A stretch of DNA of 64,000 bases, taken from assembly GCA_007556525.1 (NCBI GenBank), contig SWJS01000002.1, forward strand, positions 401,380-465,379. The letters run 5' to 3'. This document shows, piece by piece, positions 15,645 through 53,460 of the stretch (position 1 is the stretch's first letter; each line of letters begins with the position of its first letter). Under the pieces are notes generated by a model, which was given only the letters and a program-made list of their open reading frames with translations, did not search any database and was not told where the DNA came from. The position numbers were made by a program, and so were the translations under genes. The stretch comes from Lysobacteraceae bacterium CU05-9 (GTDB lineage: Bacteria; Pseudomonadota; Gammaproteobacteria; Xanthomonadales; Xanthomonadaceae).

Positions 15645-15748
15645 GAGAAATGGGAGATGGGAAAAGGGATGGGACGGATCTTTGGGCTGGCCGCTTCATA
15701 GCAAGCTCCGACACGCAGTCCCATTTCCCCTTTCCCATTTCCCTTCTC
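15645..15748. repeat. 31-bp imperfect inverted repeat with 42-nt centre
   Basis: The left arm (15645-15675) and the reverse complement of the right arm (15718-15748) both read as degenerate copies of the word GAAATGGGA and both end in GGGAC. It sits between the end of the LAB_N gene and the rpmB upstream region. There is no ORF inside. The transcript would fold into one long hairpin. Confidence 0.8.
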
Positions 15749-15755
15749 AAGTGTT

Positions 15756-16082
15756 TCAGGTTTCAGGCTTATCCCGGTTCCAACCACGGTGCTGAATGTC
15801 TTTGTACAAAGAGTACGCGGCGGTGAATCCGGGGAAGAGATTTTGTAAGACGCCCACCGAATCCTGCTTCGGCGAAAACACGAAGTAGCTCAGCGTCATC
15901 ACGGAGCCGACGAGGGACATGTACCAAAACACCCGCGGAATCGTCGGCTTGCCCGCTCTCTTCGTCGCAATGAACTGCACGATCCAACGCGAGCCGAACA
16001 TCAGCGCGCCGACCCAGCCGATCAACTTCCACGGCGTCATGTGCACGCCGGTCCACTCGAGCCAGGTGATGACCTCGTTCAT
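15756..16082 (-). CDS. Lipid A biosynthesis N-terminal domain (LAB_N) membrane protein
   Basis: 108 residues from the ATG at 16082, which overlaps the stop of the upstream glycosyltransferase (ATGA). A longer in-frame start at 16124 would lie inside that gene. Three hydrophobic segments and the motif GSRWIVQFIATKRAGK, followed by P.VFWYMSLVGS, match the LAB_N family, often found with lipid A or undecaprenyl-phosphate sugar genes. Probably an inner-membrane accessory to the adjacent glycosyltransferase; the exact activity is unknown. Confidence 0.85.
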   Translation of the reverse strand: MNEVITWLEWTGVHMTPWKLIGWVGALMFGSRWIVQFIATKRAGKPTIPRVFWYMSLVGSVMTLSYFVFSPKQDSVGVLQNLFPGFTAAYSLYKDIQHRGWNRDKPET

Positions 16083-21386: not shown

Positions 21387-21415
21387 AGTTAGAGGTAGAG
21401 GTAGACGGTTGAGTG
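21387..21415. repeat. Left 29-bp terminal inverted repeat of the S23 element
   Basis: This 29-mer matches the reverse complement of 22028-22056 at 28 of 29 positions. The arm is built from a repeated GAGGTA word. Two further degenerate copies in the opposite orientation lie nearby (CTCTACTTTCTTACT at 21362-21376 and CTCTACCTTTACT at 21472-21484). No target duplication outside the arms was recognised. The 176 nt from this repeat to the gene start hold no other ORF of note. Confidence 0.9.
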
Positions 21416-21591: not shown

Positions 21592-21999
21592 ATGATCTTC
21601 CAGAATTCCGTGCTATGGCGTAAAGCCGTTGACGCAGCGTGCATTGCAATCAAGCTGTCTTACCAACTTCCGAAAGAAGAAATGTATGGAATGCGCAGTC
21701 AGATGTCACGAGCGGCAGTATCCATCTCGAGCAACATTGCAGAAGGTTGGACGCGCGAATATCGCCGTGAAAAAATCCGGTTTTTGTCTTACGCCCATGG
21801 ATCGCTCACCGAGCTGATGACGCAATGCTTGATTTGCGTTGAAGTTGGCTGGTTGAAGAAGGAAGAACTCAACGAGCTATTTTCACTTCTTGAAGAATGC
21901 AGCCGAATGCTCACAGCGCTACGTAAGAAATATCGGCTGGAGCCAGACGGTGTTGTGTCGTTCAACGGCAAGCGCTATGACGTTCCGACGCTGCAATGA
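21592..21999 (+). CDS. Four-helix-bundle protein, S23/23S-rRNA-IVS family
   Basis: 135 residues from ATG 21592 (GAGG just upstream); the frame is open to 21532 but the added residues are not family-like. Conserved S23 features are PKEEMYGMRSQMSRAAVSI, SSNIAEGW and the final helices (FLSYAHGSLTELMTQ). Related proteins are encoded inside 23S rRNA intervening sequences and, as Avd-type proteins, beside diversity-generating reverse transcriptases; they are basic helical bundles that can bind nucleic acid. Here there is no rRNA or RT gene; instead the ORF is enclosed by a 29-bp inverted repeat. The role is unknown. Family assignment is confident. Confidence 0.9.
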   Translation: MIFQNSVLWRKAVDAACIAIKLSYQLPKEEMYGMRSQMSRAAVSISSNIAEGWTREYRREKIRFLSYAHGSLTELMTQCLICVEVGWLKKEELNELFSLLEECSRMLTALRKKYRLEPDGVVSFNGKRYDVPTLQ

Positions 22000-22027: not shown

Positions 22028-22056
22028 CACTCAACCGTCTAACTCTACCTCTAACT
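22028..22056. repeat. Right 29-bp terminal inverted repeat of the S23 element
   Basis: Reverse complement of 21387-21415 with a single mismatch. It lies 28 nt after the S23 stop codon and 12 nt before the glnA stop, so the whole element spans 21387-22056 (670 bp). Confidence 0.9.
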
Positions 22057-36379: not shown

Positions 36380-36399
36380 GCGCGAAAAAAGTGTGCTTA

Positions 36400-36443
36400 C
36401 AAAGGTTGAACTTGCGTCCAGTGACACAGATTCAACCTTTGAA
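36400..36443. repeat. Palindromic element, copy A
   Basis: CAAAGGTTGAA (36400-36410) and its exact complement TTCAACCTTTG (36431-36441) enclose CTTGCGTCCAGTGACACAGA. Lies between the 3' ends of two converging genes. Confidence 0.9.
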
Positions 36444-36476
36444 AGCGCCAGATATTCGATTCGACTGCGCAGCGAC

Positions 36477-41697: not shown

Positions 41698-41745
41698 TTT
41701 CAAAGGTTGAATCTGCGTCCATTGACACAAGTTCAACCTTTGAAA
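41698..41745. repeat. Palindromic element, copy D (inverted)
   Basis: TTTCAAAGGTTGAA at the left and TTCAACCTTTGAAA at the right. The asymmetric centre (TCTGCGTCCATTGACACAAG) is the reverse complement of the A-C arrangement, so this copy is in the opposite orientation. Confidence 0.9.
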
Positions 41746-50318: not shown

Positions 50319-50390
50319 AAATCAAAAATCTAAAATCAAACCTAAAACCCGCAAGTTGCAAGATTTTTGATTTTCGATTTCAGATTTCAT
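50319..50390. repeat. AT-rich imperfect inverted repeat (AAATCTRAAATC word)
   Basis: The left part (50319-50340) and the reverse complement of 50362-50390 are both strings of AAATC with one or two spacer bases. The same word forms the repeat at 53432-53460. It fills the 86-bp gap between nrdR and glyA. Confidence 0.7.
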
Positions 50391-53431: not shown

Positions 53432-53460
53432 CTAAATCTGAAATCTAAAATCTGAAATCA
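53432..53460. repeat. AAATCTGAAATCT short-word repeat
   Basis: CTAAATCTGAAATCTAAAA continuing to TCTGAAATCA: four tandem copies of a 7-nt word between ettA and pyrF. Same word as the 50319-50390 repeat, without a clear second arm. Confidence 0.65.

Follow-up and report, generated by a model that had tools for sequence, protein, structure and literature searches.

The window considered here is a stretch of 64,000 nucleotides from Lysobacteraceae bacterium CU05-9. It carries, at positions 15,645–15,748, a short inverted repeat built from tandem heptamers and devoid of any S23 gene, and it also contains an S23 gene enclosed by inverted arms of tandem words. The question raised by this locus is whether the gene-less repeat is a relative of the elements that harbour S23 genes. 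Comparisons within this genome, among genomes of the host's family and with S23 loci of other phyla indicate that the 15.6-kb repeat is very probably related to S23 elements. The features of the window are listed in Table 1.

Table 1. Word-built repeats and the S23 gene in the 64-kb window (position 1 is the first nucleotide of the window).
Feature	Position	Strand	Remarks
5' arm, gene-less hairpin (15.6 kb)	15645..15675	+	AAATGGG-type heptamers; sequence, inverted repeat
Spacer, 42 nt	15676..15717	.	Between the hairpin arms
3' arm, gene-less hairpin (15.6 kb)	15718..15748	-	Complementary to 15645-15675; period-7 tract 15719-15745
Half repeat, AAACCTG word (= word of S23 copy L002)	15752..15767	-	Directly adjoins the 15.6-kb hairpin
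5' arm, window S23 element, GAGGTA word	21387..21415	+	Inverted repeat
S23 / four helix bundle protein gene (PF05635, TIGR02436)	21592..21999	+	E 3.3e-32; 110 bits, cut-off 24
3' arm, window S23 element	22028..22056	-	Inverted repeat
5' arm, AAATCTG-word hairpin (50.3 kb)	50319..50340	+	Inverted repeat, 86% with 3' arm
3' arm, AAATCTG-word hairpin (50.3 kb)	50366..50387	-	Inverted repeat; period-7 tract 50369-50389
Single AAATCTG tract (53.4 kb)	53433..53459	+	Period-7 tract; no partner seen

The 15.6-kb hairpin

Inspection of the sequence confirmed two 31-nt arms of GAAATGG-type words, as the original prediction had described them, and a repeat search of the window delimited an inverted-repeat core of 23 nt (15,647–15,669 and 15,719–15,741) that is 87% complementary. 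The region folds as RNA with -54.7 kcal/mol (z -6.1; 0 of 200 shuffles as stable), and the advantage over shuffles is seen for either strand (z -6.1 and -5.6). No open reading frame of at least 90 amino acids crosses the hairpin, which is spanned by frames of 73 and 66 amino acids.

The hairpin is not a conserved cis-element of its locus, a possibility that had been named among those that would speak against kinship with S23 elements. The search for the rpmB locus covered 60 genomes, of which 58 matched, 30 yielded the locus and 22, this one included, could be read. None of the 21 readable relatives has a period-7 tract within 700 nt upstream of rpmB (8 of the 29 relatives were unreadable), and the tract occupies the orthologous site in one of the 22 genomes read.

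S23 genes of the genome and their words

A profile search found five PF05635 matches in this genome, all over the cut-off, and TIGR02436 gave 107–115 bits (cut-off 24) for the four proteins tested with it, two of them from this genome. The five S23 proteins share 34–65% identity with one another. For the gene in the window, a longer frame from 21,532 is also listed among the open reading frames. All five genes are flanked by inverted arms of tandem 6–7-nt words: GAGGTA around the window copy, whose 29-nt arms are 97% complementary with a best period of 6, AAACCTG around L002, an AGGTAA-type word around another copy, with an arm of only 19 nt, AAATGGG around L004 and AAATCTG around L005.

The 15.6-kb hairpin carries the word of L004, and the 50.3- and 53.4-kb repeats carry that of L005. 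The proposed kinship of the repeats with S23 elements is supported. Their words are those of S23 copies elsewhere in the genome, and the S23 gene of the window, to which they had been attached, is not the one whose words they bear. Similarly, the construction of the S23 arms and of the 50.3- and 53.4-kb repeats from short words was corroborated, whereas the claim that each repeat has a different word fails for the latter two, which have AAATCTG in common. The 50.3-kb hairpin folds more weakly (z -2.3; 5 of 200 shuffles as stable).

The pattern TTTCCCATTTCCCATTTC, allowing up to two mismatches, has 34 matches in this genome, 17 per strand, and the reversed pattern has none. Besides the arms of L004, 17 places carry the AAATGGG word, the 15.6-kb hairpin among them; one of these places (C1:463176) is closer to AAATCGG. 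A check of coding frames covered 16 of the 17 places (all but C14:66033). Over seven there is no frame of at least 60 amino acids, over six, including the 15.6-kb repeat, only frames of 65–115 amino acids, and three (L015, L020 and L035) lie within frames of at least 391 amino acids and may be coding. Not every dispersed AAATGGG copy is thus demonstrably non-coding. By eye, the spacers of the 16 places appear unrelated, three places share part of the 3' arm, and several copies lie directly after stop codons. A conserved spacer core was sought by eye among the same 16 places and none was seen.

Tract statistics were obtained from 324 kb of this genome, namely the window and 13 stretches chosen by position, with block shuffling as control. 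With a minimum length of 21 nt, there were 8 period-7 tracts in the real sequence vs 1 in the shuffled one. Period-8 tracts numbered 0 in both, period-5 tracts 85 vs 95, and period-6 tracts 43 vs 11, a difference to which codon structure may contribute. All five resident words recur away from their gene in these 324 kb (up to two mismatches), the reversed controls giving 1, 0, 0, 1 and 0 matches. Two arrangements deserve mention: L016 is an AAATGGG hairpin nested within AAACCTG arms, and L124 is a complete pair of GAGGTA arms, separated by 141 bases that contain no S23 gene.

Arms around S23 genes in other bacteria

S23 genes of many bacterial groups are usually flanked by inverted arms of tandem heptamers. 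S23 matches were found in 63 of the 149 genomes of the host's family, and arms with a score of at least 15 are present at 70 of the 82 S23 loci (mirror controls 0/82, shuffles 0/410). The predicted enrichment of S23 genes inside such arms is therefore found both in this genome, with five genes out of five, and in its family. Among 68 of these 70 loci, the 5' arm has a best period of 7 in 65; the other two, L044 and L057, have arm scores of 29 and 22. Beyond the family, a search with the family alignment gave at least 579 loci. Of the 80 best, which are named loci from many phyla, 61 have arms (mirror 1/80); they include Treponema, Akkermansia, Clostridia, Chloroflexi, Planctomycetes, cyanobacteria, Acidobacteria and candidate phyla. 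In a phylum sample, 16 of 30 S23 loci have arms (mirror 1).

Over all three sets of loci, 2 of 191 mirror controls reach the threshold. When 600 placements were chosen at random in genome stretches, 4 reached it, and two of these four are real S23 sites. The loci below the threshold (12 of 82 in the family, 19 of 80 named and 14 of 30 sampled) include some near contig ends; L217, L219, L221 and L229, which are cut at contig ends, score below 15, as does L235.

Several variations of this anatomy were observed. The S23 elements L130, L148, L180 and L203 have words of 8 nt rather than 7, and a distant S23 subfamily (L108, L110 and L111), located at one common site, has word-built arms too. Some S23 frames apparently use the arms as coding sequence (L071, L087, L092 and L098; L041, L084 and L082), the start codon and first residues (MENRES, MGNRES) lying in the 5' arm and the C-terminal residues in the 3' arm.

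Words, lineages and sites

Both arms of an S23 element change jointly, and the word goes with S23 lineage and site. Flank similarity revealed three recurrent S23 sites in the host's family, accB|accC (37 loci), carA|carB (11–13) and nrdA|nrdB (12), named from the translations of one locus per site. The S23 gene lies between the operon genes on the same strand at accB|accC and carA|carB, and antisense to the operon at nrdA|nrdB. A tree was built from 71 of the 82 family proteins, damaged, short and some other proteins being left out, and its bootstrap had not settled; in it the accB|accC proteins form one clade (99/99) and those of carA|carB another (99/92), nrdA|nrdB not being resolved. Within accB|accC, the words map largely onto subclades of the tree.

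The two arms of one locus match each other better than arms taken from different loci at accB|accC (21.0 vs 13.8, n=34), carA|carB (27.3 vs 18.3, n=10) and nrdA|nrdB (19.8 vs 10.8, n=12), with a permutation p ≤2e-4 in each case. This test used loci with an arm score of at least 13, and the permutation ignores relatedness, so the result reflects a limited number of events. The own partner is the best or tied arm in only 8 of 34, 4 of 10 and 6 of 12 loci, respectively, because relatives have words in common.

The idea that each insertion makes its own word was ruled out, as words track S23 clade and site. One word per genome was likewise discarded, since several genomes hold S23 genes with different words; two S23 genes in one genome can have two words. 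With respect to the proposal that each copy carries its own arm sequence, words do differ between S23 lineages, but gene-less copies use the words of resident S23 genes.

Dispersed copies carry the resident word

S23-bearing genomes tend to accumulate many gene-less hairpins in the word of their resident S23. Matches to 21-mers with up to two mismatches were counted in the 149 family genomes, the S23 arms themselves included, and carriers of a word were assigned by their S23 arms; G109 was counted as a GGGACTC carrier because matches flank its S23 gene, an assignment that a renewed comparison of the arms confirmed. GTGAATC has 568, 158 and 144 matches in its three carriers, all of one genus, and at most 7 in the other 146 genomes; a genus-mate with another word, G067, has 7. 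GGGACCC has 183, 168, 52 and 12 matches in four carriers belonging to four genera, and at most 32 elsewhere. Three non-carriers exceed the fourth carrier (G007 with 32, G133 with 28 and G038 with 13), and four genus-mates of the carrier G139 have 0, 0, 1 and 0. AAATGGG has 13 matches in the genome studied here and at most 4 in any other.

The distribution of GGGACTC is less clean. Its carriers have 286, 229, 192, 134 and 54 matches, and it is also abundant in genomes in which no S23 gene of that word was found (G004, 120; G094, 126; G055, 159; G110, 74; G067, 64). Its reversed control, GGGCTCA, is the S23 word of G033 and provided an unplanned comparison, with 99 matches in G033 and 1 in one other genome. 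Rank tests, which ignore phylogeny, gave 4e-8 for GTGAATC, 7e-8 for GGGACCC and 1e-6 for GGGACTC.

Empty and gene-less sites

At accB|accC, 84 loci without S23 were examined and 81 could be read, G139 being added separately. The spacer is shorter than 20 nt in 53 of the 81 readable S23-less genomes; S23-bearing spacers measure 429–532 nt (32 read). Six S23-less spacers contain gene-less heptamer hairpins (G084, G033, G018, G027, G047 and G096). The words of those of G084 (GGGACCC) and G033 (GGGCTCA) are those of an S23 resident elsewhere in the same genome, and the words of G018, G027 and G047 are mixed or unclear with respect to the resident S23. G096 has no S23 match in its genome, and its hairpin retains sequence resembling the two termini of an S23 element that has lost its middle part: the left inner part of this locus (L241) aligns to the element start in seven of seven relatives and the right part to the element end in four of seven, with modest scores.

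In G139 the accB|accC site holds a GGGACCC hairpin, whose word is again that of an S23 resident elsewhere in this genome. The hairpin adjoins an apparent leftover of a GGGATTC arm, and the relative G063 has at this site an S23 gene with GGGATTC arms. A gene-less site at groES|groEL (flanks judged by eye) is occupied by hairpins of different word in two sister species, each word being that of the species' own accB|accC S23. The observation comes from a single site; in the blocks compared, most of the pair's remaining tract sites had no clean two-sided counterpart. The spacers at the orthologous gene-less site appear unrelated by eye.

Other features of the accB|accC junctions were also recorded. 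In eight loci (L061, L063, L064, L067, L084, L091, L092 and L101) the 3' end of accB is repeated in inverted orientation, as a sequence of the GTGATCGGC..GCCGATCAC type between the accB stop codon and the 5' arm, which might be the trace of a fold-back insertion. No target-site duplication was recognised by eye at the accB|accC junctions. Other S23-less spacers contain a GC-rich insert of 87–105 nt without heptamer words (L247, L249, L273, L242, L283, L311, L298, L314, L300 and L320).

Possible mobility of S23 elements

The anatomy of the elements, the sharing of words, the empty and gene-less sites and the joint change of the arms are the observations from which an explanation has to start. 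Coding elements, matching gene-less satellites, empty sites and a deletion derivative are traces of the kind left by a mobile family. The best reading is that S23 elements are or were mobile and that the heptamer hairpins are their non-autonomous satellites; we infer both the movement and the part played by the protein. An S23 element consists of a gene for a small four-helix protein within complementary arms of tandem words, usually of 7 nt. The S23 ring would bind hairpins built from the word, probably in the form of RNA or single-stranded DNA, and could thereby promote the copying of its own element, and of hairpins with the same word, to new sites and to older arrays. If the coding copy's word drifts, satellites formed afterwards would take the new word. 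In its full form, the model has S23 acting on hairpins of matching word and regards the 15.6-kb repeat as a satellite of an S23 element, non-autonomous and able to form a hairpin; we consider this probable, although with clearly less confidence than the relationship itself.

MITEs are short copies of a coding element that have its inverted repeats but no gene, and the 15.6-kb repeat had been suggested to be a MITE-like remainder. This suggestion agrees with the termini common to hairpins and coding element of the same genome, with presence or absence at orthologous sites (rpmB and accB|accC) and with the single internal-deletion derivative (G096), transposition itself being probable rather than observed. 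Like MITEs, the hairpins are gene-less inverted-repeat copies; however, their arms are tandem short words that vary by lineage, and no transposase was identified. To our knowledge, no transposase or polymerase role has been attributed to PF05635. REP/REPIN sequences with RAYT are dispersed palindromes tied to a resident gene. The link between palindromes and a resident gene is a shared trait, but the S23 arms are tandem heptamers around the gene itself.

Host processes alone offer another explanation, which we regard as rather unlikely: slippage would expand the heptamers, template switching would match the arms and gene conversion would spread the commonest word, the S23 gene being a mere passenger whose arms adopt the word that is locally commonest. 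Such processes leave unexplained why S23 genes of many phyla are so often found within such arms, why hairpins of the words GTGAATC, GGGACCC and AAATGGG are for the most part restricted to S23 carriers, and why the spacers at an orthologous site look unrelated by eye. However, they would accommodate the concerted change of arms at vertically inherited sites, the switch of word between sister species at an orthologous gene-less site, the persistence of words without a matching S23 and the inverted accB end at eight accB|accC junctions, if this is indeed a fold-back trace.

It is quite improbable that the arms are kept for a role at the RNA level, either excision as in an intervening sequence (IVS) or stabilisation of the transcript through RNase III acting at the stem. 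Compared with 20 shuffles, the complete S23 element of the window has a much stronger fold (z -5.8), and the S23 gene is co-oriented with the operon at accB|accC and carA|carB, as such a role would have it, but not at nrdA|nrdB. Although the IVS of the Coxiella burnetii 23S rRNA gene combines, in the published description, S23p, tandem heptamers and a terminal stem of 28 bp that is cut by RNase III (PMC4990558), a processing stem requires neither a private word nor word-matched hairpins elsewhere. Finally, the view that the repeats are common cis-elements of conserved loci, either REP-like sequences or terminators, is scarcely credible, because, even if they are hairpin-capable and several directly follow stop codons (by eye), the tract upstream of rpmB is missing from 21 of 21 readable relatives and word populations differ between sister species.

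Relationship with known systems

As in the S23 elements studied here, the S23 ORF of the Coxiella IVS is located within complementary terminal arms with tandem heptamers, GACAGAT near the 5' end, whose number varies between strains according to the sections of the article that deal with them (PMC4990558). However, this IVS resides in the 23S rRNA gene, whereas the three S23 sites of the host's family are between protein genes, and the sections that deal with it mention no dispersed word-matched hairpins, the expressions 'intergenic' and 'elsewhere in the genome' being absent from the main text (PMC4990558).

Heptamer repeats of the sequence GGGAATC in Xanthomonas campestris and GGGGA(C/T)T repeats in Nostoc have also been reported; in two Xanthomonas genomes, 70 and 75 inverted pairs of sites were counted (PMC4692102). 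Like the hairpins analysed here, they are dispersed and mostly non-coding tracts, as far as the main text of that report goes; there they are described as quadruplex-forming with no function assigned, and the terms 'S23' and 'four helix' do not appear in it (PMC4692102). Our literature search, which covered the best-ranked matches of broad queries and few subscription journals, found no paper tying S23 genes to dispersed heptamer repeats.

More broadly, S23 elements could constitute a widespread class of mobile elements, a proposal that we put forward tentatively, as possible rather than likely. In this class a ring protein with no known catalytic fold would recognise hairpins of tandem words, each lineage would share a private word with its satellites, drift would rewrite the whole population, and a single system would embrace the 23S rRNA IVS together with the heptamers of Xanthomonas and cyanobacteria. 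If this is true, the spread of S23-bearing intervening sequences and the nature of abundant bacterial heptamers would become one question. It would also point to a function for a widespread family named just 'four helix bundle protein', and it would represent a case of terminal repeats that change yet keep their partners.

A sharp prediction follows: the dispersed word of a genome should be the word around its S23 gene. XCC0516 (2gsc), presumably an X. campestris protein to judge from its locus tag, begins with MENRES, as does its relative L071, whose GGGAATC-type arm contains ATGGAGAATCGGGAATC in frame. Since MENRES is common to XCC0516 and to L071 with its GGGAATC-type arm, the word rule seems valid for X. 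campestris, in which the dispersed word would also be that of the S23 arms. S23p of X. campestris has been structurally solved, and the solved Xanthomonas S23 relative is a homopentameric ring, as stated in the text of the same article that deals with the Coxiella IVS (PMC4990558).

A resemblance of PF05635 to Avd, the accessory protein of diversity-generating retroelements, is noted in one article (PMC10053308). A retroelement of this type was rejected for this genome, since the reverse transcriptase profile PF00078 has 0 matches in it, vs matches in 3 of 14 control genomes, and the Avd model is far below its cut-off for the sole protein that it hit.

Other sequences of the window

There is no Rfam match in the 64-kb window at gathering thresholds, and therefore no rRNA. 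A second family of dispersed palindromes, of the TTTCAAAGGTTGAACTTG..GTC type with 4-nt loops, is unrelated to the heptamer hairpins and is represented in the window at 36,395–36,446 and 41,698–41,745. Strings that resemble it were seen by eye in L123, near 17,400, and in L019.
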